This document shows, piece after piece, positions 3,410 through 37,109 of a stretch of 64,000 nucleotides of DNA. The DNA is from Balneolaceae bacterium. Its GTDB lineage: Bacteria > Bacteroidota > Rhodothermia > Balneolales > Balneolaceae. Made by a program: the position numbers and the translations under genes. The notes beneath the pieces are model-generated. The model was not told the DNA's origin and ran no database searches. It was given only the letters and a program-made list of their open reading frames with translations. Each line of letters begins with the position of its first letter. Position 1 is the stretch's first letter. Where the stretch lies: NCBI GenBank assembly GCA_017643365.1, contig JAEPNO010000008.1:62001-126000 (forward strand). Direction: 5' to 3'.

Positions 3410-3411
3410 AA

Positions 3412-3636: not shown

Positions 3637-3651
3637 ATTGTTTCCTCTCTA

Positions 3652-4446
3652 CTAATAAGCTAATTTTAATTGTGGTTTTTCGGATAAAGTCGACTCGGCC
3701 ACTATATTTTGGCTGATAAATTCGACTTCGTTATTAATTGGGTTTTCGCTGTCGTAGCCAAGTAACGTATTTTGTTTTCGTACAGCTTTTCGTACCTGAT
3801 CGTTTTCAGGTATAAAACCCAGGTAAGCACTTTCCTTTTCAAGGAAATAGGTTAAAATGGTATTAAATCGGTGGATGGTATCACTCGCCGTTTCTTCACT
3901 TTCAGCAAAGTTTACAATACTGCCAAACTTATACGTTGGGTCGATACTATACACATATTTGCATAGGCGATATACATCCGAGATGGCAGATGGTTCGTCT
4001 ACCAAAACTAACACTCCAAATTCAGCCGCATCCAGCGACCATAACGTCATTTCGCCAACACCGGCGGGAGTATCAATTAATATAAAATCGTGTGTTTGTT
4101 TAAGCGCGTACACCGCTTGGTCTAAGGCATCCATAATAATGTCGGTGCCCAGTTTTAATTCCATGGGGTCATCAGCAGCAGTAACAAGCGTAATGCCATT
4201 GCAATCTTGCATCGTTTTTTCCAGGCTGCATTCGTTCAACACCCACTCGCACAAAGTTGCTTGCACCGGCTGATTGAACATGGTTGCACAATTTGCTAAT
4301 CCAAGATCTACATCAACCACGGCTACTTTATAGCCCATATCATTCAGCATTGCCGCAATATTAACCGTAGTTAAACTTTTGCCAACTCCGCCTTTGCCAC
4401 TGATAACTGAAAACACAAAAGGATCCGAAGGTTCGAATAAATGCAT
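3652..4446 (-). CDS. flhG: FlhG, MinD/ParA-like flagellar number regulator
   Basis: FlhG (YlxH/FleN) is a P-loop ATPase that limits flagellar number together with FlhF. The deviant Walker A motif GKGGVGKS is at residues 17-24 when translation starts at MHLFEPSDPF. Further marks are the VAVVDVDLGLAN segment and IDTPAGVGEMT (Walker B/switch region). I chose the ATG at base 4446 because GGAGG stands 7 bases before it, directly at the end of flhF (stop 2 bases upstream). An upstream in-frame start at 4479 would add 11 residues inside flhF. Length 264 aa fits the family. The pairing with flhF is the usual one. Confidence 0.93.
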   Translation of the reverse strand: MHLFEPSDPFVFSVISGKGGVGKSLTTVNIAAMLNDMGYKVAVVDVDLGLANCATMFNQPVQATLCEWVLNECSLEKTMQDCNGITLVTAADDPMELKLGTDIIMDALDQAVYALKQTHDFILIDTPAGVGEMTLWSLDAAEFGVLVLVDEPSAISDVYRLCKYVYSIDPTYKFGSIVNFAESEETASDTIHRFNTILTYFLEKESAYLGFIPENDQVRKAVRKQNTLLGYDSENPINNEVEFISQNIVAESTLSEKPQLKLAY

Positions 4447-4448
4447 GT

Positions 4449-5921
4449 TTAGGCCTCCAACACTTTTTGAGCGAACCACTGTGGGTTAAACTCCATTAAA
4501 CTGGTTGGCAAAGTAGTGCCGGTGCTCACGTATCGTGCAGCACAATCCATTTCTTTCATAAATGGGATAATTGGTCCCCATTGGGTAATCTCATCCAAAT
4601 GCGTAATCGAAATATAATCAGGCTGCATTGGGTGGTTTTTTGCCGTTGCTTCGGCAAAGTAAAATTTGCTACGGGCTGCGTTAACTACAAAGTGTACTTC
4701 GAGCGGAGTTACCGGCGTAAGCAGCTGTCTGAGTTTCCAATAATCTCTAAACGATTCTTCTTTTTCGATGCTCAACGAAGGCGTGTCGATTAACACGTGA
4801 TCAAATTCCTTCCATTCTTCCAAATAATCGTTTACATCCAGCCCTTTCTTAATTTCGAAAAACGGAATGTTGTTATCCACACAAAAGGCTCCGAGAATAC
4901 TATAATAGTACTCACCTGATTTGTTTTGGGGATGCATGCTAACCACGGCTACATTCTTGTTCAGCATAAATTCGGGATGCGTGCACAGTTTCATAATTTG
5001 AGTAGTTTTGCCCGATCCGGAAGGACCTGCAAACATCATAAACTGCGAAGGCTCTTTAGTAACCTGTTTGCCAATGGAATCGCGTAAAAGTCCCGCAATC
5101 TTGGCCATGAACAATTCGGTTTGATCAAAGGGATCAACGCCATCTTTAATGATATTGCTGAACCAACCACTTACAGTGCTGGTATTAATTCCGGTTTGTA
5201 CCAATTGCTGAAATACTGGATGGCACGCATAATCGATATTCGCAGAAATGAGCGATGAATCCAATAACGACTCTAGTTTGTCGAATCGTTTGTGCAGCGC
5301 CTTAATTGCCTGTTGGTTTTCGATCGGCGTTTGGGTAGCACGTAATAATTCGCGTGGACTTTCTTTTGGCTTTGACTCTTTAAAATGGGTGATGAACTTG
5401 CCCACCGTTTTCGGAATTACGGGCTCGGGAGTCTCATCGCGTAAAATTTCTTCTTCTTGAATATTTTTTTGTGGGGCAGGGCGCAAGTTCGCACGGCGAT
5501 AAAATTGCCCGGAAGTTTTTTCCTGAATTTCTTCTTTCTGCGGTAAAAATGTCGAGCCGGCCATTACAGGCTCTTTCTCTAAAGTCTCTTTCTTTTCTTT
5601 GATAATCTGCTCGGTAGCGTACTTTCTTAGGTTCGCTAATTTCGGACTTTCTCTCTTTTCTTCGGTCGCCATTCGTACTCCGCTGCGTTCGAATTGAACA
5701 CCGCTTTCTTCTTGTTTTAGCGATTCGCGAAACGCTCGGCGGGGGTCTTGAGTAGGTTGTTCAGCCGATTTTTCACTATCCGAAAAAATAGTAATTCTGG
5801 CTTTTTGGCTTTCTGAAGTAGCTTCAGTAGCCTCTAGAATAAGGATATCGTCGCCATACATTTGAAATGCTGTTTTCTTAGCGGCTTCGATGGTTTTGCC
5901 AAAAATATTCTTCAGTATCAT
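4449..5921 (-). CDS. flhF: FlhF, SRP-like GTPase of flagellar placement
   Basis: FlhF is a signal-recognition-particle type GTPase that marks the site of flagellar assembly. The protein has 490 residues: a variable basic and charged N-terminal domain (about 1-200), an N domain, and a G domain with P-loop GPSGSGKT (299-306), DTPSLS (380-385) and THLDE (440-444, the base-specificity motif TKxD in altered form). The THLDE form and the long charged linker (residues 50-200) are within what is known for FlhF. It overlaps flhA by 4 bases upstream and precedes flhG by 2 bases, so translation is likely coupled. Confidence 0.93.
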   Translation of the reverse strand: MILKNIFGKTIEAAKKTAFQMYGDDILILEATEATSESQKARITIFSDSEKSAEQPTQDPRRAFRESLKQEESGVQFERSGVRMATEEKRESPKLANLRKYATEQIIKEKKETLEKEPVMAGSTFLPQKEEIQEKTSGQFYRRANLRPAPQKNIQEEEILRDETPEPVIPKTVGKFITHFKESKPKESPRELLRATQTPIENQQAIKALHKRFDKLESLLDSSLISANIDYACHPVFQQLVQTGINTSTVSGWFSNIIKDGVDPFDQTELFMAKIAGLLRDSIGKQVTKEPSQFMMFAGPSGSGKTTQIMKLCTHPEFMLNKNVAVVSMHPQNKSGEYYYSILGAFCVDNNIPFFEIKKGLDVNDYLEEWKEFDHVLIDTPSLSIEKEESFRDYWKLRQLLTPVTPLEVHFVVNAARSKFYFAEATAKNHPMQPDYISITHLDEITQWGPIIPFMKEMDCAARYVSTGTTLPTSLMEFNPQWFAQKVLEA

Positions 5922-8071
5922 ACTAATTCACTTTCTTGGGTAGTGGGCTGTAGTTGGTTTCCGGAGTTTTGATTTAAGGTCTTAGGCTCCGGTGCTTGCA
6001 TCGTTAAACGATCAAAAGTCTTGAACTGAATGTCTTGGCTGATGTCGTTGTACGAGAGCACATTTATATCTGGCAAAATTGGTGCCAGAAACTCAAACAG
6101 GGTAAATCGAAGGATAGGAGAGGTTAGAAGTACCGGCTCAAAACCCTTTCTTACCATATTGGTAAAAGTTGCCGATGCTGTCTGATAGAGACGCTCCACC
6201 GTATCAGGAGTGAGGCCCAGCGTGTTGCTGTTTAGCATGCCCTGTTGAGCCTGATTAATTAGGTGCGACTCTAACTGAGGCTCCAGCATCACAACCACAA
6301 CTTCGTTCTCCGGAGTTACAAACTGGCGAGTAATGGTTTCCGATAAAGCAGCACGGCAATACTCGTTTAACACATCCGTATTGTTGGTTTGATGGCAATA
6401 ATCGGCCAGCGTTTCTAGGATGGTAATTAAATCTCGAATAGGAACACGCTCGCGTAATAAGCGGCGAAGAACTTTCTGGATATCACCGATTTTCATTCCA
6501 TCAGGAACTAATTCTTCTACTAATGCCGGTGCCTGCTCCTTCACATTTTCAACCAGCTTCTGCACCATTTGTCGGTCGATGAGCTTGTGGGCATTTTTCT
6601 TCAACACTTCCATTAAATGTGTTGTGATAACCGCACCCGCTTCGATCACGGCAAGCCCATATTTTTCCGCTTCCGACTTATTTTTTCCGCTCACCCAAAC
6701 GGCGTCCATTCCAAAAGTCGGGTCTTTGGTTTCGATTCCTTGAATGTTCGGTCGGAAATCTTCGGGAAGTAAAGTGAGGTAATAACCGGGTAGTAATTCG
6801 CCTGAACCTTGTTCAACACCGCGCATTTTTATGGTGTATCGATTAGCATCGAGCTGCACATTATCTCTAATACGAATGGAAGGGATGATGATGCCCAATT
6901 CGGCGGCAAGTTGCTTACGGAGTGAAGTCATACGCTCCAGGAGATCTCCACCTTGGGTAACTTCGACCATTGGGATTAAACTGTAGCCGATTTCGAGCTC
7001 CAGCGTATCCATCATTAAATAGTTTTCTACCGGATCTTCTTTTTTCTGAACTACCGCATCCGATTTTTCTGCTTCTATCGCCTCGTTTTCTTCCCGCTCT
7101 GCTTTTCGATAATTCTTAAAAGCCATAAACAGGAGGAATCCACCGATGCCCCAAAATGGTACGACCGGTAGACCGGGCATCATCCCCATGAAAATTACAA
7201 ACACGGCTGCAATGGTCACGGTTTTAGGATTACCTAGAAGTTGGTCGGTAAGTTCGTTACTAAGGTTCCCTTCCGATGCTGCTCTAGATACGATCATACC
7301 GGAAGCGGTAGAAATGAGCAGTCCGGGAATTTGCGACACCAATCCATCACCAATAGTCATTAAGGTATAAGTGGATGCCGCTTCGGCTAAAGGCATGCGT
7401 AATTGAACCGTCCCGATAATCAAGCCACCAATTATATTGATGAAGGTGATTAATAAACCTGCTACCACATCGCCACGAACAAATTTAGAAGCACCATCCA
7501 TCGCCCCATAAAAATCGGCTTCGCGAGCAATTTCTTCACGACGCTTTTTTGCTTCTTCATCGGTAAGTAATCCGGCGGCTAAATCGGCATCAATCGACAT
7601 CTGTTTACCGGGCATGGCGTCCAGCGTAAATCGAGCGGCAACCTCGGCAATACGCGTAGCACCTTTGGTAATTACTACAAAGTTGATGATTACCAACACC
7701 GAGAAGATGATGATCCCGATTACAAAATTACCTTGCACGATAAACCCACCAAAGGCTTCGATGATATTACCGGCATCGCCCTCACTTAGAATCAATCGGG
7801 TAGTGGCAACGTTTAGCGACAGCCGGAACAGCGTTAAAATTAGAAGCATGCCGGGGAAAACGGCAAATTGCAGCGGTTTTAGGGCATAAAAAGCTACCAA
7901 CAACACAATGAGCGAGAAGGTGATGTTGAGCGCCAGGAAAAAATCCATTAATGCGGTTGGAAATGGAATAATCATGATCAAAAGAATCATGATTAAGCCC
8001 GACGATATCAGTACATCCGTTTGAAAGAATGTGTCTTTAAGTCTTTTTAAGTCTAATCCGCCAAAATTCAT
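5918..8071 (-). CDS. flhA: FlhA, flagellar export gate nonameric ring protein
   Basis: FlhA is the largest export-gate subunit: about eight membrane helices (residues 20-330) followed by a cytoplasmic domain that docks chaperone-substrate complexes. At 717 residues it has normal family length. The cytoplasmic FHIPEP-type loop is recognisable as ARFTLDAMPGKQMSIDADLA, together with EADFYGAMDGASKFVRGDV. The C-terminal half contains typical LVPDGMKIGDIQKVLRRLLR and RDLITILETLADY segments. The gene sits 5 bases after flhB and overlaps flhF by 4 bases. Confidence 0.97.
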   Translation of the reverse strand: MNFGGLDLKRLKDTFFQTDVLISSGLIMILLIMIIPFPTALMDFFLALNITFSLIVLLVAFYALKPLQFAVFPGMLLILTLFRLSLNVATTRLILSEGDAGNIIEAFGGFIVQGNFVIGIIIFSVLVIINFVVITKGATRIAEVAARFTLDAMPGKQMSIDADLAAGLLTDEEAKKRREEIAREADFYGAMDGASKFVRGDVVAGLLITFINIIGGLIIGTVQLRMPLAEAASTYTLMTIGDGLVSQIPGLLISTASGMIVSRAASEGNLSNELTDQLLGNPKTVTIAAVFVIFMGMMPGLPVVPFWGIGGFLLFMAFKNYRKAEREENEAIEAEKSDAVVQKKEDPVENYLMMDTLELEIGYSLIPMVEVTQGGDLLERMTSLRKQLAAELGIIIPSIRIRDNVQLDANRYTIKMRGVEQGSGELLPGYYLTLLPEDFRPNIQGIETKDPTFGMDAVWVSGKNKSEAEKYGLAVIEAGAVITTHLMEVLKKNAHKLIDRQMVQKLVENVKEQAPALVEELVPDGMKIGDIQKVLRRLLRERVPIRDLITILETLADYCHQTNNTDVLNEYCRAALSETITRQFVTPENEVVVVMLEPQLESHLINQAQQGMLNSNTLGLTPDTVERLYQTASATFTNMVRKGFEPVLLTSPILRFTLFEFLAPILPDINVLSYNDISQDIQFKTFDRLTMQAPEPKTLNQNSGNQLQPTTQESELV

Positions 8072-10344: not shown

Positions 10345-11136
10345 ATGTTTAGAGCACTAAGTACAGCCGCATTGGGCATGAGCGCCCAACAACGTTCGGT
10401 TGATAATATCGCGAACAATCTTGCTAACGTCGGTACAACCGGCTTTAAACGATCTACCATCGCATTTCAGGATTTGTTTTATGAAAACATAGCGTCTTCT
10501 AAGCTAGGTAGTTCTTCGAGCCGAAGTTCCAGCGACGGTCCGATGCTTCAAATCGGGCATGGCTCAAGAGCTGTGGCAACCATCAGGAACTTTATGCAAG
10601 GTTCGGTAGCCGAAACCGGCAACGCACTCGATTTAGCCATCAGTGGCGATGGGTTTTTTCAGGTTGAATTGCCTGACGGATCTACCGCTTATACAAGAGA
10701 TGGAAATTTCAGCCGCGATTCGTCCGGTTTATTGGTGAATAACTCCGGCTTGCCTTTGGCAGGTCAGATTGAAGTACCCACCGATGCATTAGCCATCGAA
10801 GTAAACCAGGATGGAACCGTATCGGCACGCTTAAGTGATAACTCGGAAGTTGAAATCGGACAGATTGAATTGGCAAAATTTGCAAACAGTGGCGGATTAG
10901 AAGCCATTGGGGATAACCTCTTTGTAGAAACCGAATCCTCTGGCCTTGCTTTTTTCGGTACACCCGGTGAAGAAGGATTTGGAGTAGTTCGTCAGGGTTA
11001 TTTAGAGCAGTCGAATGTAGACATCGTAACCGAAATGGTTCGATTGATCGAAGCTCAGCGCGCATATGAAACCAATTCAAAAATGGTTCAGGCTGCTGAA
11101 GATATGATGCAGGTTACAAATTCTATCAAACGATAA
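10345..11136 (+). CDS. flgG: FlgG, flagellar distal rod protein
   Basis: FlgG builds the distal rod, the drive shaft crossing the periplasm and outer membrane. The 263-residue length is typical. The N-terminus MFRALSTAALGMSAQQRSVD and the motif NIANNLANVGTTGFKRS are signatures, as is the C-terminal MVRLIEAQRAYETNSKMVQA. It follows flgF by 27 bases and precedes flgA by 1 base, the usual rod and ring gene order. Confidence 0.96.
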   Translation: MFRALSTAALGMSAQQRSVDNIANNLANVGTTGFKRSTIAFQDLFYENIASSKLGSSSSRSSSDGPMLQIGHGSRAVATIRNFMQGSVAETGNALDLAISGDGFFQVELPDGSTAYTRDGNFSRDSSGLLVNNSGLPLAGQIEVPTDALAIEVNQDGTVSARLSDNSEVEIGQIELAKFANSGGLEAIGDNLFVETESSGLAFFGTPGEEGFGVVRQGYLEQSNVDIVTEMVRLIEAQRAYETNSKMVQAAEDMMQVTNSIKR

Positions 11137-16729: not shown

Positions 16730-18082
16730 ATGAACAACATTCAAAACGATACAAACAATAATAATAAAGCTACTTGGGTAGATGTAGTTTGGTACCTAAG
16801 CGATACTAAATATCTAACCGAAGAACGCCTTGAAGAACTTAAGTCGACCTTCGGCAATGTTGTGGTAGCCACCCCGGAGCATAGCCCATTAATGGCTTCG
16901 CAAAAAGTTATTTGGCATCAATATCACCCGGAATCTCCAAAAGTAGAAGTGTGGAACGCAATGCTTAACAAAGGCAGCAACGCATGGAAAATGTATCTGC
17001 AAGATGATGAATTCCTTCGCATTCCTGAACTGGATGCCCAAATTGAAATGAATACCAAAGAGTGGCCGGCAACACTGATTATTCATCGTGGTAGTGATAA
17101 GAACTATCAGTATTACCAAATGCGCCTCATCCATAATTTCGAAGGCTTTCATTTTGATGGGGTTAATCTGCCTGATGCAACCCGAAGCATCATAAACCAT
17201 GGCATTACCTTATCGAATGTTCCTGTTGAGGTTATTGCTACAAAAAACCCCAATGCTGAGCTTGATATCGAAGAGGAGCTATCGGTAGCTAATAACGCGC
17301 CACAGTTGTTTATCGAAAATGGATATCGATTATTCAAAGCCAAAAAGTACATTCATGCCGCTGCTCAGTATCGGCAAATTGCGAATTCGGACATGGTTAT
17401 GCCATTCGATCGTTTGAGTGCACTTAATGGCATCGCGAGTTGCCACGCTGAAACATTCCGTTGGGATCAGGCACTTTCAGCTGCTGATCAATCGATTGCT
17501 GAAGATTCATTCCAGAATCTGCCGTATCTCATCAAATTCAAAGTATCTCAGCTTAATAAAGAGTGGGATGATGCGTACATGTCGCTGAAAAAGTACTACA
17601 AAAACACTTTTTATGAGCGCATTAAGCTGCATTCACGAGCTAACTACGATGTGCGAATTACTATCGACGAGACCTTAATAAGCTTGGTTGATTTGGCATT
17701 CAAGGCCGGATATTTGGAAGAGGCGTCTGAGCATTTGGAAGAGTTATTCGATCTTAAAGAAGGGAAGCTCGAAAATTCACTGGTGAAACAGTTACTCGTG
17801 CTTTCAATTGAATTGAAAGATCAAGAAAAGTCGGATTTCTATTTTAAGAAGTTATATGCCGGCAAGTTTCCTAAAAATCTAACTGAAAAAGAAACCAATC
17901 AGTTGAACGACCACATGGAAATGTTCATTAAAAATGGCTGGTATGAAAATGTGTATGAAGTATATTCGAAGTTGCACTATAACTACCCGCAGAATGACGA
18001 ATTCCGCCGCCGACTGATTGTAACCCTGGTAAAAACAGGTCGCCTTGAACAGGCGAGAAATCTTGCGTCGAAAGTAGCGTAA
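16730..18082 (+). CDS. GT2-like domain fused to TPR-like helices, last gene of the flg operon
   Basis: This 450-residue protein is not a standard flagellar component. Residues about 15-170 resemble a divergent family-2 glycosyltransferase: a beta-strand start WVDVVWYLSD, then VWNAMLNKGSNAWKMYLQDD followed by E (positions 74-95), which aligns in pattern with the ARN-GxxxAxGEWxxxLDxDE block, and QMRLIHNFEGFHFDG like the later RLF-H segment. Residues about 190-450 are helical repeats of TPR type (GYRLFKAKKYIHAAAQYRQI). It ends the operon before a clear terminator. Given flagellin-modification genes at 29-35 kb, a role in glycosylating flagellar axial proteins is plausible. The Asp-rich LQDDE site suggests it may be active, but this is inference. 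RBS AGAGAGG precedes the ATG. Confidence 0.6.
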   Translation: MNNIQNDTNNNNKATWVDVVWYLSDTKYLTEERLEELKSTFGNVVVATPEHSPLMASQKVIWHQYHPESPKVEVWNAMLNKGSNAWKMYLQDDEFLRIPELDAQIEMNTKEWPATLIIHRGSDKNYQYYQMRLIHNFEGFHFDGVNLPDATRSIINHGITLSNVPVEVIATKNPNAELDIEEELSVANNAPQLFIENGYRLFKAKKYIHAAAQYRQIANSDMVMPFDRLSALNGIASCHAETFRWDQALSAADQSIAEDSFQNLPYLIKFKVSQLNKEWDDAYMSLKKYYKNTFYERIKLHSRANYDVRITIDETLISLVDLAFKAGYLEEASEHLEELFDLKEGKLENSLVKQLLVLSIELKDQEKSDFYFKKLYAGKFPKNLTEKETNQLNDHMEMFIKNGWYENVYEVYSKLHYNYPQNDEFRRRLIVTLVKTGRLEQARNLASKVA

Positions 18083-18120
18083 CGTAACGCAAGTAGCCCT
18101 TATCTAACTATACAGAAGAA

Positions 18121-18147
18121 GCAGGTCTTAACGGCCTGCTTTTTTTG
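18121..18147 (+). terminator. Intrinsic terminator of the flgF-flgL operon
   Basis: GCAGGTC-TTAAC-GGCCTGC forms a GC-rich hairpin directly followed by seven T residues. It is 38 bases after the stop of the GT2/TPR gene. Confidence 0.9.
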
Positions 18148-18274
18148 TTTGTGGGTGTGGGAGTAAATAGACGCCTTTTATTGGATTCCATTAATTTGAT
18201 CTAATGGAATCATTTAGATATTAGACAAAATCTGTTAGGTTATTGGGTAGTATTAAATCTGTATCATTGTTTAG

Positions 18275-19771
18275 TTAGTGATCTTTATCAATCTTAATGA
18301 AACTATAATAAAAACCTTTGCAATGATTCCTTTCTCCTCGAAGTACTTTATTAATTCCACTCCCATTCTTGTAACCTAATGTTCTTGCTGCTTCAGCTGC
18401 AGATACAAATTCTTGAATAAACGTTGATTTGTTTTTGGTGTACTGATAGATTGTTTTTGTTAATTTCTTATTTATAGTCTCTCTAGACTTTACTTTTTTT
18501 TCAAGTCGTTTTTTTATTTCTAAGAGTGTTAACTCTTTATATGACCATACATAGCCCAAGTAAGTCTTTTGATATATTCCATTGGCCGCAGATGAAATTT
18601 GTTTGTAGTTCCAATTTGAATTTTTTCTACACGCTTCCCTTGCTGAATTCCAGCTTCCAACTAGATTTCCAGATTTAGGATCGTATTGAAAAACTATTTT
18701 TGATTGAGGAATAGTATATGGTGCAATTTTTTTAGGATAATTATCAGACATTTTATATTTCCACTGGAAATTACCTGCATGATAATATTCCCCAGAAGCT
18801 ACTTTTTGGATTGTTACTCTAGAAATACCTGTAATTTCTTCAGCTTCATCTGTTGTTCGAAAAGTATTGACAAAATTACCTTCTAAATCATATTGAATAA
18901 CAGGTTTTGCAGTTTTTGCATAATGTTTGAGCAATCCATTCAATTCGGTAGCAGATTGTATTTTTTTTAAAATGCCATCTTCTTCTTTGTATTTCCATTG
19001 ATAACCATATGCTGTTATCAAATAATCATTTCGAGCACATTCTGAAATTTTACTTCCCCCATTTTTAACTCCAATCATTTCTGCGGCAATAGTAGGTGAT
19101 CTAAATTCATTTAAAAAATTACCAAGTTTATCATATTGTAAAACCCAATAATCACTCGGAGCTGGCGAAATTTTTCTAGGATACTTATTTGTTTTCTTGT
19201 AATGCCATTGAAAACCAAATGCAATTTTAGAAAGACCTAAACAAACACGTGGAATTCCTGAAACTGAATTACTGTTAACATTTAATTCAATATTTGCCGA
19301 TTTAATCGAATCCCATTCTCTTATAAATTTACCGTCGATATCATATTGTAAAACTGCAGTTGTATAATTATAAATTCCCTCTCCGCCTTCAGTTTGATTA
19401 TATCCATTATCAAGTGTGTTTAGTTTTTTAATCCAATAAATTTCCTTTTCAGATAGTTTTTCCTCATATATCTCTTTATTAGAGTATTGGAAATCTGAAT
19501 CGACTTCCAAATAGTCAATGATTTGGTAATGAAATTTATCTAATCCAATCTCTCTCATTGCCGAGATAATGCCATTTTTGGATACAAGTTGGTTTGATTT
19601 AACTTCGTATTTTCTTCCTCTTATTCTTTCTCTTAAATCAATAGTTTTTCCAACATAAATTTTGCTATTGACATCATTGGTTACTTTATAAATCACACCA
19701 TAGATACGGAGCTCTCTTAATTCATTATTAGTATATTTTTTAGTAGGATTTATTTTTATATACGAATTCAT
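18275..19771 (-). CDS. GIY-YIG domain protein with five C-terminal NUMOD-like repeats
   Basis: This 498-residue protein begins with a GIY-YIG nuclease-like domain: YGVIYKVTNDVNSKIYVGKT (residues 24-43) with DLRERIRGR after it and GYNQTEGGEG closing the domain (123-132). The rest is five imperfect repeats of about 52 residues (about 140-192, 209-262, 291-340, 360-412, 441-492). Each starts like VLQYDxxGNF, holds a helix-turn-helix-like SAxEAAxxxG core and ends FQWKYK, which resembles nuclease-associated modular DNA-binding repeats of homing endonucleases. Base composition is markedly AT-rich against the neighbouring flg genes, a sign of transfer. No intron or interrupted gene is evident around it, so it seems free-standing. 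Confidence 0.75.
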   Translation of the reverse strand: MNSYIKINPTKKYTNNELRELRIYGVIYKVTNDVNSKIYVGKTIDLRERIRGRKYEVKSNQLVSKNGIISAMREIGLDKFHYQIIDYLEVDSDFQYSNKEIYEEKLSEKEIYWIKKLNTLDNGYNQTEGGEGIYNYTTAVLQYDIDGKFIREWDSIKSANIELNVNSNSVSGIPRVCLGLSKIAFGFQWHYKKTNKYPRKISPAPSDYWVLQYDKLGNFLNEFRSPTIAAEMIGVKNGGSKISECARNDYLITAYGYQWKYKEEDGILKKIQSATELNGLLKHYAKTAKPVIQYDLEGNFVNTFRTTDEAEEITGISRVTIQKVASGEYYHAGNFQWKYKMSDNYPKKIAPYTIPQSKIVFQYDPKSGNLVGSWNSAREACRKNSNWNYKQISSAANGIYQKTYLGYVWSYKELTLLEIKKRLEKKVKSRETINKKLTKTIYQYTKNKSTFIQEFVSAAEAARTLGYKNGSGINKVLRGERNHCKGFYYSFIKIDKDH

Positions 19772-19891
19772 ACAATCTAACGATTCAGCATTTTATGGCA
19801 CTGATTCTCGATTTAAATTGAAGCAACTGAATGTTTTTATCGCACACAAGTTATCCAGCTTACCTCGAATATTTCTGATTTAAACATATAA

Positions 19892-20293
19892 CTATGTTCG
19901 GCTAAACGGATATTCAAGAAGCTCAATATCTGGTAAAAACTTATAGTGCTTCTGATTTTTGCTAATCATTTTTGTTTTCTTGACTAAAGAGGTTGCGGCA
20001 ATCAGCATATCGTTAATCTCCACACCATGACTTGATCTAAATTTCTTCATCAACTGAAAGGCTGTTTTTGAAATCGATTCTGAAACAAATTCAACGTAAA
20101 TATCTCCAAGTAATTCATCGACCCTTTTTAAATCTCTCTTACTACGACACCCAGAATAAAGCTCCATGGCTGTAATTACACTGACACTAAGTATGAATTG
20201 ATCTTCAAGAAGGGCTAATGTTTGTGTCGCATCAGTTCTATCCATGCTAAAATCGATGAAAATATCTGTATCAATTATTACGGGCTCAGCCAT
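19892..20293 (-). CDS. vapC: VapC-like PIN-domain toxin
   Basis: This 133-residue protein is a PIN-domain ribonuclease: the first acidic residue is in VIIDTDIFIDF, a Glu in VITAMELYSG, and the third acidic centre in GVEINDMLIAATSLV. That is the order and spacing expected for VapC toxins, which cut RNA. The partner antitoxin gene lies 8 bases upstream on the same strand. The symbol is a family name, and the target is unknown. Confidence 0.88.
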   Translation of the reverse strand: MAEPVIIDTDIFIDFSMDRTDATQTLALLEDQFILSVSVITAMELYSGCRSKRDLKRVDELLGDIYVEFVSESISKTAFQLMKKFRSSHGVEINDMLIAATSLVKKTKMISKNQKHYKFLPDIELLEYPFSRT

Positions 20294-20301
20294 AAGGTTG
20301 A

Positions 20302-20541
20302 TTATTCAGAAAAACGGCTTTTTCTAAGTTCTCGAACCCATTTGGTACTATCCTGCATATCTACCCGATCTTTCCAAATTCCCCGAAATGAACTTTTTAA
20401 GATAGACTTTTTAATTGATGGGTCAGTTTCATCAGATGGTTGGAGATACTTTTTAGATAAAAATTCGACAAAAACCGCTGCTTCTTTTTGAGCTTCGGTT
20501 GGAAGTTTCTTGAGTTGTTTTATGAGTTCTTTTTCCGACAT
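20302..20541 (-). CDS. DUF2281/VapB-like antitoxin
   Basis: This 79-residue protein begins MSEKELIKQLKKLPTEAQKE and continues AAVFVEFLSKKY, a pattern seen in the short proteins (DUF2281) that accompany PIN toxins. It should bind and neutralise the VapC-like protein and repress the promoter of the pair. The two genes are 8 bases apart in antitoxin-first order, as usual. Confidence 0.8.
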   Translation of the reverse strand: MSEKELIKQLKKLPTEAQKEAAVFVEFLSKKYLQPSDETDPSIKKSILKSSFRGIWKDRVDMQDSTKWVRELRKSRFSE

Positions 20542-20702
20542 ATATTAATGTAATTAATCTAAAACACATTTAAAACGAACGAATAGAGAACTGTGTATAA
20601 ACACTAACCACTCGGAGTAAAAGTGGTGCAGGTGCTAAGTTATTTATGAAGTAATCAAAAAAAATTTATAGTTCGAAGTATAAATGTAATGCCTACATAA
20701 GT

Positions 20703-21131
20703 TCAATTTATGCCGCTTTGTTTAACATTGAATCCAAAGACAGTGACAGTAATGAGCTGCCAGAGACACCAAAGTAAATACCAGCTAAAGATTACAGACC
20801 CGAACTCTCCATTTATATCATATTGAAAAGGTGAAAAGGCATTTTCAAATCCTTCGAAATAGGTAAAGCAAAGAAGTAATACATCAGCAAAAAGTGCTAT
20901 TGAAACAGCTATGGTTGAATACTTTTTTCCCTTATTCGTTTTTCTGTACAGCCAAGCAAAGCCGGCAATTGGTAGCGAAAAAATTATTAAGCAAGAAGCC
21001 CAAAATGAAGAATTCCAACCATGTCCGCCACCCGCCATAAACAAAGCTAATCCAATAATTAGGATGCTATAAACAAATGAAATGCCTATGAAGCTTAGTT
21101 TTAGATAAATATTTGAGTTCGAAGATACCAT
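20703..21131 (-). CDS. Four-helix membrane protein of unknown function
   Basis: A 142-residue protein with four hydrophobic segments (about residues 10-30, 42-62, 72-92 and 112-135) and no recognised family. Charged residues are confined to short loops, including the YRKTNKGKK loop between helices 2 and 3. It stands alone between the VapBC-like and HigBA pairs in the accessory block, on the same strand as both. No RBS or promoter could be assigned with confidence. Confidence 0.5.
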   Translation of the reverse strand: MVSSNSNIYLKLSFIGISFVYSILIIGLALFMAGGGHGWNSSFWASCLIIFSLPIAGFAWLYRKTNKGKKYSTIAVSIALFADVLLLCFTYFEGFENAFSPFQYDINGEFGSVIFSWYLLWCLWQLITVTVFGFNVKQSGIN

Positions 21132-21256
21132 TCGGAGCTAAATGTATAAGATTGATCAGGTTTATGCACCTAAACAACTGAAATACTTTTGCTTGAGGAA
21201 TTGAACAGGTGATTTGTAATGTGGGCAAGAAACTGAATCTAATTCAATTATGTGAA

Positions 21257-21300
21257 CAAGGAGTTCCCTCTCCGGATGCAGGAGAGGGTCGGGGTGAGGT
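21257..21300. repeat. Palindromic repeat family B, copy 2
   Basis: Reads GGAGTTCCCTCTCCGGATGC and AGGAGAGGGTCGGGGTGAGG. It lies just downstream of the antitoxin gene higA and shares the GGTCGGGGTGAGG tail with the other family-B copies. Confidence 0.65.
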
Positions 21301-21338
21301 AGTAAAAATTGGATGGTGAATGGATGTTATTACAATAC

Positions 21339-21704
21339 TTAAGCCGGCTCAGATTCTTGGATTAATACTTCCGCCGGAATCCCGAGTTTTTTGTACAGTA
21401 ATTTTATGTGACGTAGAGAAAGAGAGCGCTTGCCCGAAAGTATCTCACTTGCCCGTGATTTTGATCCCAATAATTTGGACAAATCTTTCTGCTCCATCCC
21501 CAATTGATCCATGCGGAATTTAATAGCATCAACCGGATTAGGTGCTTCAATAGGGAAATGCCTGTTTTCGAATTCATTTACTAAAATCCCCAGAATTTCT
21601 AATTCATCGCCTTCTTCACTACCTGGTTTGGCATCGAAAATTTCTTCAATTCGATCTAGTGCTTTTTGGTAATCGTATTCGGTATGTATAGGCTGAATCT
21701 GCAT
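21339..21704 (-). CDS. higA: HigA-like antitoxin (XRE helix-turn-helix)
   Basis: This 121-residue protein has an XRE-type helix-turn-helix in its C-terminal half: MDQLGMEQKDLSKLLGSKSR followed by ASEILSGKRSLSLRHIKLLY, and the tail GIPAEVLIQ. That is the HigA pattern in HigB-first (inverted) toxin-antitoxin loci. It lies 14 bases downstream of the toxin gene and should neutralise the toxin and repress the operon. Confidence 0.88.
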   Translation of the reverse strand: MQIQPIHTEYDYQKALDRIEEIFDAKPGSEEGDELEILGILVNEFENRHFPIEAPNPVDAIKFRMDQLGMEQKDLSKLLGSKSRASEILSGKRSLSLRHIKLLYKKLGIPAEVLIQESEPA

Positions 21705-21718
21705 AATTAAAAACCACT

Positions 21719-22012
21719 TTAAATTGTTGTTGCATCAATCTTGTCGTATTCGGCGTGAGTACCTACAAAACGGATGAAAACCTGTCCGTAGTCGTAATTG
21801 ATTTTGACTACCAAACGATAGCTATTGCCCTTGATATTGAAAACTACTCGGTTATCAGGGAGAATACTGGCGAGAGGATATTTTTTCTTTATATCAGACG
21901 GTGATTCCCACTGGGAATTAACTGCTTCAGAAAACCATGATTTTAAAGCACCTTCACTGTCCGAATGGTTAATCCAAAACTCACGTATTGTTTTTCGGGC
22001 AATTACTCGCAT
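21719..22012 (-). CDS. higB: HigB-like mRNA interferase toxin
   Basis: HigB toxins are small ribosome-associated RNases of the RelE fold. The start is set at base 22012, giving MRVIARKTIREFWINHSDSE, the usual N-terminus of the family (97 residues). A longer frame begins at 22051 but adds 13 residues unlike the family. The segments LKSWFSEAVNSQWESPSDIK, VVFNIKGNSYRLVVKINY and VFIRFVGTHAEYDKIDA are typical. The toxin gene precedes the antitoxin, as in hig loci. Confidence 0.88.
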   Translation of the reverse strand: MRVIARKTIREFWINHSDSEGALKSWFSEAVNSQWESPSDIKKKYPLASILPDNRVVFNIKGNSYRLVVKINYDYGQVFIRFVGTHAEYDKIDATTI

Positions 22013-22250
22013 CCAGCAATATAGAAAGTTCCAATTTTGGGAACAAATCAAAGATCAGGGCGAGGTCACATCTAAAGTACAGAGAGAACAACTAAACAAG
22101 TGATTCAGTGAATCGCTTCGATAGAGTGAGTGTTTAATGAGTCTACTTTGGTCTCACACTCGTCTAGATCCTTCTGAAGAATCTTCAGGATGGCGGAACA
22201 CTAATTAAAATCGAATGTTGAGTGTTGAATATTGAACGTTGCTTGCTCGC

Positions 22251-22718
22251 TCACGAATACCCTTGCATGGAAAAATGATTCCGGATAACAAGAACGCATA
22301 GCAGTAGGACTGGGCTATTTTCATCATACATTTCCGTATAGCCCTCTTTTCTACTCTTTCCTGAAAGCCTGATTCTATTCCCTCGATCTAAAACTACCCA
22401 CTTTCGAGTTAACATGTGCTCAAATCGCCATTTGTAAACCTCGGATCCAAGCTTGATCGTAGCTCGAGGTACAAATAAAGCACAAGAAATCTTCCCAATT
22501 TCAGCTCGGTCGTTTAGGTTTATGATTGAGATGCTTGTCTTAACAAACCCGTTTTTCTCGAAAAGATATTTCTGACCATAGAGTGTGGCTTTTACCGATC
22601 GATGAAGGGTTTTATCTTTGATTTCACCAACCAACTCTGCCCCGGAAAAAATACTGTGATTGTACTTAAATGCGTCTTTGGTCCAGTATAATTTTTGAGG
22701 CGTAATCGAATTATCCAT
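22251..22718 (-). CDS. Unknown protein, possibly LURP/tubby-like fold
   Basis: This 155-residue protein has alternating short beta-type segments (LVGEIKDKTLHRSVKATLYG, QKYLFEKNGFVKTSISI, ATIKLGSEVYKWRFEHML) and a hydrophobic final stretch (PVLLLCVLVIRNHF). The layout recalls small Bacteroidota-type LURP-one/tubby-like proteins, but I cannot confirm this by eye. Its start codon overlaps the stop of the histidine kinase gene (TAATG), so it is the second gene of that transcript. Confidence 0.5.
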   Translation of the reverse strand: MDNSITPQKLYWTKDAFKYNHSIFSGAELVGEIKDKTLHRSVKATLYGQKYLFEKNGFVKTSISIINLNDRAEIGKISCALFVPRATIKLGSEVYKWRFEHMLTRKWVVLDRGNRIRLSGKSRKEGYTEMYDENSPVLLLCVLVIRNHFSMQGYS

Positions 22719-24478
22719 TACCCGTTATTCGTATCAGGATGAGGTTCATTTTTAGCTTTAACATTTCTTTTGAAACGAACTTCGATACTACTGCCATCCT
22801 CATTGGTTAGCGAATAAGTTCCCTTAAGTTGCTTCACCAGCACGTTTATTAATTTCATGCCTAGTGCCGTAGGTTCTAGTTCAAATCGAATGTTTTCTAA
22901 TTCAGATTTGGCAAGTACTTTTAAGCAAAGTTCATTTTCAAGCTCTACAAATTGGGTAGTTATACACCCACCACCGGTTGTATTTTGGGCCAGAATACAA
23001 TAACTCTCTAGTATCTCATTTAGAAGCAATCCAACCGACATTGCTTGCTTTATTCCCAAATATACTTGTTCGGGCTGCGCTTCAGCTTTCCAGCTATCCG
23101 AAGGTAATTTGCTGTCGCATACATTTTGTACGATGTCGTTGATACAGCCTTCCATATCGATACTCGAAAACGACTCGGTAGCATAAACCCGTTCATGTAC
23201 AAGAGCCATCGAATGCACCCGGGAAACGGTACGATCCCAGTACACTTTCTGTTCTTTATCAGTAATAGAAATACGTTGAAGTTGAATCAACGTAGAAATA
23301 AGAGCGAGGTTATTTTTAACCCGATCGTGGACCTCAGCAAGTAATTCTGTTTTTTCTACCAGCTGTGCCTCAATTTGCTGTTTGGCTAATTCTCGCTCGG
23401 TTATATCATGAATAATGCCGTAAACACCGGTTATTTCACCATCGATATAAATAGGGAGGGACGTGATTTCAGAATACATGCGCTCCCCGTTTTTCTTTAT
23501 ACCTACGGTTTCGTAGGTCTGAGGCTCGCCTTCTAATGTGCGTAGAAAAATGGGCTCAATTCGCTCAAGCTCATAAGCCTCAAAAAACTGAATAAAATTT
23601 TCTCCCATCAGTTCTTCTTTGGTATAACCCGTAACTTCTGTAAGTACATCATTCCCTTCTACAAACTCACCTCGTTTCGAAATGAGGCAAACGGCATTTG
23701 GGTTTTGTTCGAACAATGAACGGTATTGCTGTTCACTAACTTCAATGGCACGGTGCCATTTCTTCATCGACTTAGCAAACCGGAATGAAAGTAAGAATCC
23801 GGTAATAAGCAGAATGAGTCCGATGGAGATCGAAATCCACAGAATAAGCGTGTTTAATAAATGAGCACCATCAGAGAGTGAAGCCGCCAAAGCATGCTGC
23901 ATGCGAGTGAGTTCACGATCTAAATAAAAGAGTTCTTTTATGGCAGCCTGACGAGTTGCATCATCAAACTCAGCGCTTTCCATTTTGTTTTTACTGAATG
24001 CTGCCAAATCTTGCATCTCTTTGATGTATCCATCAGAAACATCCCAAACGTGAATAGCCTCTTTAAAATCCGGGAAAGTGTGGAAATTCTCGAACGCCGT
24101 AATCATAAAATCGAGATCCTGTGGCACTGTGTAGATATCGCCCATTTGGCGTTTAACAGAAGTGTGATCCGAATTGTCTTTCATCAACTCAACACGTACC
24201 GATTCGGCTTTTTGCATATAAAGCATGGCACTATCGAATCGGGCAAAATATTGGGGGTCCTCCGATTCAATATAATTTGCCAGTTGCAGGGAGGCCTCTT
24301 TCCGGGCTTCAGTCCAATATGTTTGTAGAGATGCAAATCCCCGTAAGCCTGAAAGGGTATTTGTAGCAATTACGATTGTAAAAACCAGGCATACTCCAAG
24401 TACTGCAAATACAGAAAGGATTCCAATCATTGCTCGGTCGATATCCAACCGTCTGGAATCATTGTTAAGTTTACTCAT
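22718..24478 (-). CDS. PAS-containing sensor protein with HisKA_2-type site and degenerate ATPase domain
   Basis: A 586-residue membrane sensor with helix 1 (about 17-39), an extracytoplasmic helical region (45-205), helix 2 (LLNTLILWISISIGLILLIT and on), a PAS domain (about 250-365, NPNAVCLISKRGEFVEGNDV) and a HisKA_2-like phosphoacceptor site with His385 in LLAEVHDRVKNNLALI. The ATPase domain is odd. Its N box reads LLLNEILESYCILAQ, where most members have NELxxNAxKH. The DxGxG motif is missing (KVLAKSELENIRFELEPTAL), while the LGMKLINVLVKQLKG block is kept. It may be a pseudokinase or bind nucleotide unusually. It lies downstream of the sigma-54 activator, on the same strand, in FleS/FleR manner. 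Confidence 0.8.
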   Translation of the reverse strand: MSKLNNDSRRLDIDRAMIGILSVFAVLGVCLVFTIVIATNTLSGLRGFASLQTYWTEARKEASLQLANYIESEDPQYFARFDSAMLYMQKAESVRVELMKDNSDHTSVKRQMGDIYTVPQDLDFMITAFENFHTFPDFKEAIHVWDVSDGYIKEMQDLAAFSKNKMESAEFDDATRQAAIKELFYLDRELTRMQHALAASLSDGAHLLNTLILWISISIGLILLITGFLLSFRFAKSMKKWHRAIEVSEQQYRSLFEQNPNAVCLISKRGEFVEGNDVLTEVTGYTKEELMGENFIQFFEAYELERIEPIFLRTLEGEPQTYETVGIKKNGERMYSEITSLPIYIDGEITGVYGIIHDITERELAKQQIEAQLVEKTELLAEVHDRVKNNLALISTLIQLQRISITDKEQKVYWDRTVSRVHSMALVHERVYATESFSSIDMEGCINDIVQNVCDSKLPSDSWKAEAQPEQVYLGIKQAMSVGLLLNEILESYCILAQNTTGGGCITTQFVELENELCLKVLAKSELENIRFELEPTALGMKLINVLVKQLKGTYSLTNEDGSSIEVRFKRNVKAKNEPHPDTNNG

Positions 24479-24914
24479 TACCTCGTTTTAAGCCCTATAT
24501 CTATTAACTGCAATCTACGTTGTACGCTACCCCAAATTTGCTGATCTAATGTATCACTCCATTATAATTCGATACATTTTTTCTGAAGAGCACTACCGTA
24601 GATTTAACCCTTACAAAAAAACAGAATTTCTCTATCAGCTAAAAGTTAAAATATATAAACCTATTTCGTGCAGTAACTTGGCGGATTCTAACCGAAATCA
24701 TTATCAATGAGTTTTGGTCGTTAGTTTAGAGGAATTGATTAATTCGCCTTTCGTAAATACAGACTCGCATATTCGTATTTCTCCCGACCTCACCCCGACC
24801 CTCTCCTGCATCAGGAGAGGGAGCTCCTTAAAGAGTTTCGATTTTGAAACTAAATCTTTCGTCGTTGCTCGAATGTTCGAAGTTCAACTGTTCGATATTC
24901 TTCTGTTCAACAGT
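24479..24914. other. 436-base spacer between sensor and regulator genes
   Basis: No gene is visible. The half next to the sensor gene is AT-rich and presumably holds its promoter. The half next to the regulator stop codon carries a family-B palindrome (24785-24829) and GTTCGAAGTTCAACTGTTCG-type degenerate repeats. The repeat insertion separates two genes that are often adjacent in one operon. Confidence 0.5.
24785..24829. repeat. Palindromic repeat family B, copy 3
   Basis: Reads GACCTCACCCCGACCCTCTC then CTGCATCAGGAGAGGGAGCT. It is followed by GAGTTTCGATTTTGAAACT and AAATCTTTCGTCG (to about 24863), also found after copy 1 near 1965-2005. Confidence 0.65.
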
Positions 24915-26336
24915 TCACCCGTCTTCGCCATATTGCTTTAGTTTATTACGAATGGTTCGATCAGAAATGCCTAATAACTCGGCGGCTTTTTTCTGATTCC
25001 CCTGCGTTTTTTCAAGCGCTTTACGGATGAGCTTCATCTCGGCTTCCTCAATCGACATTAACGGCAGATCTTCGCTTTCCATTTTTTCGTTGCTGAGGTT
25101 TTCATCCACACTCGAAAACATTTCGTTGTCAATGTGCTCGATTTTTATTTCATCGCTATCCTGTGCCAGGATTATTCCACGGTGCATTTTGTTATTCAGC
25201 TCACGCACATTTCCCCGCCAATCTTGCGCCACCATATAATCCATCAATTCTTTCGACACCTCTTTCTGTTCCAAACCATATCGTTTGGTGTAATGCTCGG
25301 CAAAATAGTTAACCAACAACGGGATGTCGCTTTTACGTTGACGAAGAGGTGGGATTTCGATCGGAAACACATTCAATCGATAGTATAAATCTTCTCGGAA
25401 TTGCTTGTCTGCAATCGACTCGGCAATATTTCTGTTCGAGGTGGCCAATATCCTAACATTTGCTTTGATAGGTTTTTGGCTGCCAACGCGATAAAACTCA
25501 TTTTCCTGGAGTACTCGCAAAAGTTTTGCCTGTACGTTAATGTCAATTTCAGTGATTTCATCTAACAAAAGAGTTCCACCTTCAGCGGCATCGAATGCTC
25601 CCTTCCGATCTGAGATTGCTCCTGTAAAAGCGCCTTTAATGTGTCCAAAAAGGGTGCTTTCAACAAGTTCTGAAGGCAAGTTTGCACAATTTATTTTGAT
25701 ATACGGGCCGTCAGATCTATTACTGTGCACATGAATCTGGTGTGCAAATACTTCCTTCCCGGTTCCACTTTCCCCTTGAATTAAAACCGGTGCAACATTC
25801 TTGGCAATCTGAGGAAGTACGCGCATCAGTTTTTTAATTTGAGGATCTTCTCCGATAAACTGATTCTCACCTTTTTTCGAGGCATTAACCGGGCTGATAG
25901 CTTCCGCTTTTTCTGTCTTAATTGACGGCGCTGTAGTTGTTGCCGGTTTTCTTTTAGCTGATTCCTCTTCGGGATCGGCTTCGAAAAATCTATTTACCCG
26001 GAAAAGAATTTCTTTTGCCTTAAATGGCTTTGTGATGTAATCGAAAGCGCCTTTATGCAATGCGCGAACAGCATGATTGATGTTACCAAAGCCGGTAATC
26101 ATGATTACACCAATATTCGGATATTCTTTTTTTACGGTGGTTAGTACTTCATCGCCTGTTAATTCATTCATTTTAACATCAGTAATAACCAAGTCTACGG
26201 CATCTTTTTTAAGATGATCTAAAGCTTTTACAGGCGAACTGTAAGCCGAGACCTGATAACCGGTAGCAGTAAGTATTTCTTCAATAAATCCGAGAAGGAG
26301 TTCGTCGTCGTCAATAACGAGAATAGATCGTTTCAT
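24915..26336 (-). CDS. Sigma-54-dependent response regulator (FleR/FlrC/NtrC type)
   Basis: A 473-residue activator with three domains. A receiver domain (1-120) has phosphoacceptor Asp53 in VDLVITDVKMNE. An AAA+ domain (about 165-400) has Walker A GESGTGKE (188-195), GAFTGA (235-240, the sigma-54 contact loop) and GGTLLLDEI (Walker B). A Fis-type helix-turn-helix closes the protein (KAAELLGISDRTIRNKLKQY). It should open sigma-54 promoters; candidate -24/-12 boxes are before flgF, fliS and the giant glycosyltransferase gene. Location between flagellar gene blocks makes it the likely master activator of middle flagellar genes. Its partner sensor is probably the PAS protein downstream. Confidence 0.93.
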   Translation of the reverse strand: MKRSILVIDDDELLLGFIEEILTATGYQVSAYSSPVKALDHLKKDAVDLVITDVKMNELTGDEVLTTVKKEYPNIGVIMITGFGNINHAVRALHKGAFDYITKPFKAKEILFRVNRFFEADPEEESAKRKPATTTAPSIKTEKAEAISPVNASKKGENQFIGEDPQIKKLMRVLPQIAKNVAPVLIQGESGTGKEVFAHQIHVHSNRSDGPYIKINCANLPSELVESTLFGHIKGAFTGAISDRKGAFDAAEGGTLLLDEITEIDINVQAKLLRVLQENEFYRVGSQKPIKANVRILATSNRNIAESIADKQFREDLYYRLNVFPIEIPPLRQRKSDIPLLVNYFAEHYTKRYGLEQKEVSKELMDYMVAQDWRGNVRELNNKMHRGIILAQDSDEIKIEHIDNEMFSSVDENLSNEKMESEDLPLMSIEEAEMKLIRKALEKTQGNQKKAAELLGISDRTIRNKLKQYGEDG

Positions 26337-29377: not shown

Positions 29378-32300
29378 ATGCAGGTAGAAATAGCTCGAGT
29401 GCAAGCACTTTTAAGCAAAAAGCACCCGAATTCGGATAAAGCAATTAAAATGCTGCGCCCGCTCCTTAAGCGTGGAAACTGTCCGTGGATGGTTTACCAT
29501 TATATGGGAGTTGCTCTGCTGCAAAAAGCCGATCATAAAAAAGCACTAGAATATTTACAGCGAGCTTTAGAAGTAGGCGGTACCGAACCGGAAGTTTTTC
29601 ATTTAGTATCCGTTGCTCATTACAATCTCAATCACTTTGAGCAAGCTATTAAATTCGGTTTTGAAGCAGTTAAACGTAAAGATGATTTCCTGGAAGCCTG
29701 GATAAACATCGGGGCAGCACACCGCGCAATGGCGAATTTGGATGAAGCCATGAAGGCGTACACCAAAGCGAATAATATTGATCCCAAAAATGCAGGGATT
29801 GCCTACCGCATTGGTTCTATTTATTTCGATCAGGGAGATTTTAAGAAGGCAAGGGAGTTATACGAGATTTCGGCCAAAATGGAGCCTGATTTTATAGAAG
29901 CACACCTCGGTCAGGCACTCATCGATCTGAAACTTCAGAAATACACCGATGCTGAAGCCAAGATCAAAAAAACGCTGGAAATTGCGCCAAACAACCGCTT
30001 ATGCAGAATTCAGTTAGCCGTTGTTTATAAAGAATGGGGGCATTACAGCGAGGCCATCAGGCTTAATGAGCAATTATTACGCGAAAACCCAAAAGACGGA
30101 CGATTAAGGGTTAACTATGCGCTGTGTTTGCTCGAAGTTGGTCGGTTTAATGAAGCAGAGCATAATTATATGCGAGCGTTAAAAGACTCGCCCGATGCAC
30201 ACGAGTCGCTTTCGAATTATTTAATGGGTATCCATTACAATCCGGAGCGAACCAAAGAAGAAATTTTTGATGCTCATGCTTTGTGGGATCAACATTTTGC
30301 TCCAAAAACTAGAAATGAGCGTCCGGTTCCAGCTAATCTAGATCCCTATAAAAAACTTCGAGTCGGATTTATCTCTGGTGGCTTTAGAAAACATCCCGTT
30401 GGTTGGATGATTACGCGCGCACTTGAAAATCTACCATCCGAATTATTCGAAATTTATGGGTATAACACCCATTCGGTGCACGACGAATTTACCATGCGCA
30501 TTCGCAATTGCTGCGAAAAATGGACCACCGTTATTGGATATAACGACGAAGTAGTTGCTAAAATCATTCGGGATGATGAAGTTGATATTTTAGTTGAACT
30601 CTCAGGGCACTCTGCGTTTAATCGACTTAAAACCGTTGCACTTGAACCGGTACCAATTACCATTAAATGGGTGGGTGGACTGTTTAACACCACAGGATTG
30701 GAAAGCATGGATTACCTGCTTACCGATCACTATGAGTCGCCAAAAGGGGAGGAAGCATTTTATACCGAAAAGTTAGTGCGTATGCCCGACGATTATGTGT
30801 GCTACGAGCCACCGGCGTACGATATTAAAGTGGCGGAACTTCCGGCCTTATTTAACGGATTTGTTACGTTTGGGTGTTTCAATAACCCATCGAAATTGAA
30901 TGATCAATTGATTGAGCAATGGTCTCAAATTCTGCATTCGGTTGAAGGAAGTAAATTATTTCTGAAAAGTAAGCAGTACGACACTCCAGACTTTGTTAAA
31001 CAAGTTGTAGATGAGTTTGAGAAAAATGGAATCGAAAAATCCCGATTGATATTTGAAGGTTACGCCATGCACGAAGATCTGCTGGCCTCGTACAATCAAG
31101 TGGATATTGCGCTAGATCCGTGGCCATATTCGGGTGGCTTAACAACCTGCGAAGCTCTTTGGATGGGAGTTCCTGTGATAACCTGTGCAGGTCCCACTTT
31201 TGCCGGGCGACACTCAGTAACGCATTTATCAAATACCGGAAACAGCGATTGGGTTACTTATAACTGGGAAGATTACAAAGCGAAGGCATTGGAACTTGCC
31301 TCAGATATCGAAGCCTTAAAACACACACGTGCCGGTTTAAGAGATCAATTATTGAACTCCCCGTTATGTGATGGTGCTCGATTTGGGGCACACTTAAGTA
31401 CTGCGTTCCGCGAGATGTGGAAGCAACGAGTTGAAGGATATAAACAAAATCTGCCCGAAGGCGAGTGGCAGAATCATATTGATGTGAGAGCTTTAAATGA
31501 AGCCGCATTGGATGTTTTTTGTAAAGATCATGCACTTAGTAAAGAGCCACCGGTTTTACAGAATTACCATCAAATTGAATGGGATAATGGCCTTAAAGTG
31601 GCAGTTCCCAAATCGAAAGAAAATTTTACGCATTACACACTCATTGAAAATCCTGAGAAGCATCAGCGATTATTCGAGGTATTCTCTGAAATCCTGAATC
31701 AAAACGATCAAGTTTTGGAAGTGGGATCTGGATATGGTGTACTAACCATGCATTTAGCTCATTTGGTTGGGGAAAACGGAACAGTTGTAGCCGTTGAACC
31801 AAATCCGAGGATTGTTCCTTTTTTAAAGGAAAGCAAACGTATCAATAGGCTAGATCAGGTTGCAATAAAAGAAGTAGCCGCCGATACTAATGATGGGGCT
31901 TCGTATTTATTGGTGGGAAGCATCCAAGAAAATGGGATGCTTAATCAAGAATTGGGAACCATTCCGGTTGACGCAAAAACTTTACAACAAATAGCCGATG
32001 ATCATCAAGCGTTCGACCCAAAACTTGTTATTATTGATGTTGCTGGTGATTTATCACCAATTTTAGAATGTGTTGATTCACTCGAGAAGAACGAAAAACC
32101 TATTATTTGTTTGGGCAATTTCGGTGAATTTGATTCCGATCAAGCACACGCCTTAAAGTCAGAGGGCTACAAATTTTTCGAGCATATCGAGGAAGTTGGA
32201 GTACTTTCGGCAGTGGAAGAAAACCATACTTCAACAGCCCGCTGGATTTTTGCTTTAAACCAAGATCATATTCAAAAACTCACGGACAAGGGATTCGTTT

Positions 32301-37092: not shown

Positions 37093-37109
37093 TTCAAGCA
37101 ACGTAGACA

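Follow-up and report, generated by a model that had tools for sequence, protein, structure and literature searches.

How does a gene for a homing-type endonuclease travel when it sits in neither an intron nor a prophage? Such enzymes are usually pictured as riding in introns, inteins and phages. The gene considered here lies in a 64,000-nucleotide stretch of the genome of a Balneolaceae bacterium (GCA_017643365.1, contig JAEPNO010000008.1, positions 62,001 to 126,000 of the forward strand), which we refer to as the window. We favor, with reasonable though far from complete confidence, the view that it is a homing-type GIY-YIG endonuclease gene whose vehicle is an integron cassette, not an intron or a prophage, and that the window copy has been left behind in an eroded cassette cluster. 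The features on which the argument draws are collected in Table 1.

Table 1. Island, border genes and endonuclease features, in window positions
Feature	Positions	Strand	Basis or remark
Left border: TPR gene	16730..18082	+	Pfam
Inserted island, 6,832 nt	18083..24914	.	Between TPR gene and response regulator gene
GIY-YIG endonuclease gene with five NUMOD-type repeats	18275..19771	-	498 aa; ORF call, Pfam, TIGR01453, repeat profile
Repeat 5	18290..18460	-	Residues 438-494; I-HmuI_NUMOD-like
Repeat 4	18533..18703	-	Residues 357-413; shuffles and repeat profile
Repeat 3	18746..18910	-	Residues 288-342; best Pfam NUMOD1 stretch 289-323
Repeat 2	18983..19153	-	Residues 207-263; shuffles and repeat profile
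Repeat 1	19193..19360	-	Residues 138-193; shuffles and repeat profile
GIY-YIG domain	19397..19699	-	Residues 25-125, including R49 and E110; Pfam PF01541, alignment to 1ln0/1mk0
Candidate decayed attC 3' half-site (R' side)	19777..19797	-	Just before endonuclease ATG; same-genus matrix
VapC-like PIN gene (19892-20293) and DUF2281 gene (20302-20541)	19892..20541	-	Pfam; 77% DNA match in G002 C11
Second attC-like half-site, weak	20604..20624	-	Upstream of VapBC-like pair; rank 6, same-genus matrix
HigA-like HTH gene and HigB toxin gene	21339..22051	-	Pfam; 82% DNA match in G002 C11
Right border: sigma-54-dependent response regulator gene	24915..26336	-	Pfam

Results

A GIY-YIG endonuclease with five NUMOD-type repeats

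An earlier reading made from the sequence alone (the sequence-only reading) had described an AT-rich gene for a free-standing GIY-YIG nuclease-like protein at this position. Its coordinates are exact and the ORF is real, and what it overlooked is the strand: the gene runs on the minus strand and is convergent with the TPR gene. The G+C content is 0.29-0.31 over the gene versus 0.41-0.44 at 16.0-17.7 kb, in agreement with the description. The nuclease assignment is likewise borne out by two matches that exceed their cut-offs, one to PF01541 over residues 25-125 (25.6 bits, cut-off 22.6; E 1.6e-5) and one to the group I intron endonuclease family TIGR01453 (72.7 bits, cut-off 56.05). An alignment to two I-TevI structures, weak overall (E 0.008 and 0.0093), places R49 and E110 opposite the two residues mutated in 1ln0 and 1mk0; the positions that differ between these structures are presumably R27 and E75 of I-TevI (R27A, E75A). 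The catalytic arginine and glutamate, on whose retention the sequence-only reading had made its assignment depend, are thus kept here, and they are unchanged in an ortholog in another genome of the phylum (G258). A structure prediction, which had been proposed as a further check, returned a mean pLDDT of 37.8 and is too low for use. No group I intron was recognised around the gene, because nothing between window positions 16000 and 26000 matches an Rfam family at E <= 1, and this is in keeping with a free-standing homing-type gene.

The claim of five repeats also stands. A repeat profile resolves five copies in the window protein (at 138-193, 207-263, 288-341, 357-413 and 438-493) and five in the G258 ortholog, having been built from, and so trained on, the repeats of these same two proteins. 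Independent support comes from Pfam, with NUMOD1 matching over three stretches (E 4.5e-27) and an I-HmuI_NUMOD-like match at residues 453-488. In pairwise comparison, eight of the ten repeat pairs score better than all 1000 shuffles, and the remaining two, pairs 1-5 and 4-5, are equalled by 3/1000 and 1/1000 shuffles, respectively. Some details of the original description need amending: the repetition itself is right but the units are about 55 rather than about 52 residues long, with linkers of 13-24 residues, and the QYDxxGN start and WKYK end are present but degenerate in repeats 4 and 5. As judged from sequence comparison, then, the predicted protein has its domains, intact catalytic residues and five conserved repeats.

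It resembles the GIY-YIG/NUMOD homing endonucleases (I-TevI class; TIGR01453) in having a GIY-YIG domain followed by NUMOD modules and in keeping the catalytic Arg and Glu, and it differs from them in its five modules, in the lack of a recognised intron and in the cassette context of its ortholog. The number of modules does not set it apart as had been supposed. Among 19 homologous loci searched for repeats, 10 showed them, nine with one to three copies and one, L028 of genome G106 in the same phylum, with five; because L028 also carries five, such an arrangement is uncommon among the loci searched but not unique. The L028 protein shares five repeats of the same family (Pfam NUMOD1, E 2.1e-30), but it is without a GIY-YIG domain and has no Pfam nuclease domain at E <= 0.01; by eye, its N-terminal part looks HNH-like.

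A new island at an old gene junction

The TPR gene was found in 19 of 58 genomes. Leaving aside the window's genome (G000) and a sister genome (G002), it adjoins the regulator gene in 16 of the 17 other loci examined, with regulators 53-80% identical and 20-363 nt between match ends; in the seventeenth (L023) the regulator match is weak. The junction is thus of long standing, whereas the island within it is recent. The sister genome is informative in part: its contig breaks inside the same junction, the first ~68 nt of the island (to 18150), with a terminator, are common to both genomes, and the flank of the endonuclease gene on the VapC side is not.

Other contents of the island include a PAS histidine kinase gene at 22718-24478, for which the closest counterparts in G002, G001, G019 and G023 do not exceed 34% identity. 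Copies of a REP-like hairpin with CCTCACCCCGACCCTCTCC occur at window positions 1933-2007, 21258-21300, 24787-24829, 61279-61407 and 61862-61990, and two of these places (21258-21300 and 24787-24829) fall inside the island. These two copies were considered as attC candidates and rejected as REP-like hairpins.

A sporadic gene with two full-length copies

The endonuclease gene is present once in the window's genome. Across the phylum, 15 of 394 genomes match the protein at E 1e-5, its own genome counted, and besides its own gene there is one full-length match, in G258. Within the order, matches are confined to 2 of 128 genomes, and NUMOD1 exceeds its cut-off in 2 of 128, each time in this endonuclease gene. 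Of 72,556 plasmid records a single one matches, over 23%. A scan of genome contigs with both orthologs gave 73 stretches, none of them a relative, and a scan of viral contigs gave 132 stretches with two partial relatives.

Over 492 positions the two proteins share 60% identity; the figure is 65-73% in the repeats, 38-50% in the linkers and 58% in the nuclease core. Between the genes, dN is ~0.31 and dS ~1.6 (ratio ~0.20), dS being near saturation in several parts. Their neighbors differ, with VapC-like and TPR genes in the window versus a ferritin-like gene and unknown ORFs in G258, and a comparison of the flanks of the two copies for a common target site found similarity inside the gene only. 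The stable synteny that the sequence-only reading had named as evidence against itself is not seen, and the gene is sporadic, with a presence in 2 of 128 genomes of the order and differing neighbors.

A rival explanation is that the gene is a remnant of a prophage or transposon. According to the available part of PMC1564403, most bacterial GIY-YIG enzymes of the homing type are located in or near transposons or prophages, and distant relatives of our protein do occur in phages. These relatives are partial, however: 59 of 50,697 phage records match, none of them covers 80% of the protein, and the best aligns with 64% of it, at an identity of 26%. In addition, none of the seven island ORFs tested besides the endonuclease matches a phage or transposase family in Pfam. 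An origin of this kind is already weakened by these results, and we regard it as very unlikely.

The ortholog in a cassette context

The G258 ortholog suggests how such a gene might travel, and it was the integron context that the sequence-only reading missed. In G258 the ORF (L044:9143-10621) is bracketed by attC sites at L044:8991-9117 and 10628-10753, 25 nt before it and 6 nt after it. Both sites are copies of one 126-127 nt repeat, which is found again in arrays throughout the genus of G258. Its anatomy is that of attC, with CTAAC and GTTAG at its opposite ends and arms that covary. An attC model was built from 31 sites; at E <= 0.001 it has 126 matches, in 17 loci that were picked for having them. 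The two flanking sites score 140.3 and 131.9 bits, values that are not independent evidence because both sites were among those that trained the model. Of the cells in the arms of these 31 sites, 97.3% are paired; changes on both sides are seen in 34 cells, a number reached by 0/500 shuffles. Two other counts are unfavorable, namely the three pairs with double changes (reached by 235/500 shuffles) and the six further pair types (498/500), and single-strand DNA folding does not favor the two G258 sites over shuffles (z -0.14 to -0.87).

A check that is independent of the attC model comes from the ends of the cassettes. In an integron cassette, the leading bases are complementary to the beginning of the attC that belongs to it. 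In the G258 endonuclease cassette the complementary ends form a run of 11, or of 12 with the preceding G, and runs of at least 7 are found in 46 of 60 cassettes versus 178 of 3540 mismatched pairs. By its sequence anatomy, the G258 ortholog is an integron cassette, and it is the single proven case. The likeness to integron cassettes and CALINs thus covers the single ORF with its attC, the complementary ends and the array neighbors; the differences are that the window copy has no whole attC and that the cargo is a homing-type endonuclease. The contig also carries an integron integrase (450.3 bits), but at ~163 kb from the gene, which therefore sits in a detached cluster. None of 149 ORFs in cassette arrays matches the repeat profile; these are the part of a set of 182 that excludes the ORFs of L138, L139 and L143.

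Several observations concern the arrays themselves. The 33 attC matches that G258 has at E <= 0.1 occur at many places on several contigs, and the cassettes are therefore dispersed rather than gathered in one array. In the large cassette array L130-L131 (G281:C2:545000-577000), attC sites follow one another at intervals of roughly a kilobase. Among the 149 array ORFs, which come from several genomes, the top Pfam family has three members (among the best 25 of 127 families).

The G258 layout bears directly on another account, in which the gene is an ordinary free-standing homing endonuclease of the Seg or Mob-like kind that inserted itself into an intergenic region when a break made at its cut site was repaired, with the signs of an integron in the window being coincidental or due to its neighbors. 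The protein does belong to the class of free-standing homing endonucleases, and the window gene is flanked by no whole attC, with none recognised on its 3' side. This account has difficulty with the attC sites and matching cassette ends that bracket the G258 gene, and the two copies, in the stretches compared, are alike only within the gene, which is unlike what one shared homing site would give. We consider self-insertion unlikely; the G258 cassette suggests a different route of travel for such genes.

Candidate traces of attC around the window copy

No whole attC was found in the island either by a strict scan for attC palindromes or by the covariance model run without filters, whose top hit scored 8.5 bits (E 0.41). 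Extended to stretches of G002 and G258 along with the island, the strict scan gave one convincing site, near the G258 integrase. What we do find is a candidate half-site just upstream of the endonuclease ATG, a motif spotted by eye before any matrix was built. With a matrix made from 10 distinct attC half-sites from 14 loci of the window's genus, it ranks third of 127,960 positions, behind 63415 and 9662 elsewhere in the window, and its score is equalled by 1/5000 dinucleotide shuffles of the 120-nt gap. A matrix from both genera puts it at rank 5 (9/5000 shuffles) and one from genus g7 alone at rank 52 (218/5000). Counting the weaker second half-site, two of the top six positions fall in the gaps of the island, which total 1,315 nt (P 0.0015 for one strand, 0.006 for both), and no column-shuffled matrix out of 200 reached the score. 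The window copy is only a probable cassette, because no whole attC accompanies it and its own 3' attC was not recognised.

Nor was an integron integrase found in the window's genome, which is 99.81% complete and in which the best match to TIGR02249 reaches 106.6 bits against a cut-off of 265. A cluster of attC sites of the CALIN type by definition needs no integrase. The contig break in G002 is flanked by matches to one of that genome's own attC families (C21:87393-87446 on the minus strand, C33:145831-145877 on the plus strand), and the strands of both matches correspond to the window minus strand. Both toxin-antitoxin pairs of the island, the VapBC-like and the HigBA-like, have counterparts in G002 (77 and 82% DNA identity) that stand in the opposite order, at distances of 3.9 and 5.2 kb from an integron integrase (418.8 bits); a single attC match of 39.2 bits lies between them and that integrase. 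In the same part of G002 (L078, G002:C11:116000-124500), genes resembling Zorya type II (ZorA, ZorB and ZorE matches, 3062-7289) adjoin the integrase.

Discussion

Our preferred explanation is that the island would represent an eroded cassette cluster without an integrase, whose attC sites have decayed. An integron integrase would have moved the endonuclease gene by recombining attC sites, and since it would do so, the gene need not home in order to spread. At the level of the enzyme, the NUMOD modules would read a long DNA site and the GIY-YIG domain would cut beside it. Its target would most likely lie in competing phages or mobile elements, or at a related locus without the gene. A use for the host is plausible because toxin-antitoxin and defence genes are found in its company, and a selfish role is plausible because of the class of enzyme.

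The host-serving version of this idea deserves separate mention: the gene may encode an antiphage nuclease, and the cassette may be kept because the enzyme cuts invading DNA. The toxin-antitoxin pairs in the island and the Zorya type II set next to the G002 integrase are consistent with such a function, as is the label that PADLOC models give the protein, HEase, a class listed in the PADLOC library. Less easily accommodated are its sporadic occurrence in the order and the finding by Pfam of no methyltransferase or immunity gene beside the endonuclease, and we view an antiphage role as a doubtful one. It overlaps with the cassette explanation in that it concerns the target and not the vehicle. 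At the selfish end, one may picture a cassette with two engines, in which the integrase carries the gene from array to array and from lineage to lineage, while the five-module endonuclease cuts cassette junctions or rival elements without it, and the cassette thereby drives its own copying. This strikes us as highly improbable as a full account. A target in the conserved part of attC is argued against by G258, which keeps its 33 attC matches beside an intact gene; within the two-engine scheme, the putative target may instead be a cassette-specific junction.

Nucleases as integron cargo have precedents. In the parts available to us, PMC10609294 describes an ORF with a GIY-YIG domain (orf6) in an integron cassette of Aeromonas, and PMC7370490 lists toxin-antitoxin systems and the endonuclease families PF01844 and PF14279 among cassettes. 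These resemble our case in carrying nuclease domains as cargo, and differ in that no NUMOD modules or homing endonuclease are named in those parts, a distinction drawn from descriptions and not from sequences. The word "homing" is absent from the main texts of PMC7370490, PMC9892861 and PMC7923331. Among the listed papers on integrons with GIY-YIG or homing endonucleases, judged by titles and the starts of abstracts and with most subscription journals outside the scope, none describes a homing-endonuclease cassette.

If a homing endonuclease exists as a discrete integron cassette, the vehicles for such genes would number three, and the known cargo of integrons would come to include a nuclease of the selfish type. 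The two orthologs, 60% identical and with unlike neighbors, form a pair for asking what a five-module reader recognises. The locus further suggests that some cassette clusters escape attC searches because they have worn down, and that they can then be met as variable islands next to housekeeping operons.

Other features of the window

Two further observations concern the window outside the island. Five tandem ORFs of 316-318 aa occupy positions 36136-41972, and the three that were tested match the N- and C-terminal domains of flagellin in Pfam. Beside these flagellin genes, at 29378-34060, is a 1560-aa ORF with TPR repeats, matches to glycosyltransferase families 41 and 56 and a methyltransferase-like stretch, whose product is possibly involved in flagellin glycosylation.
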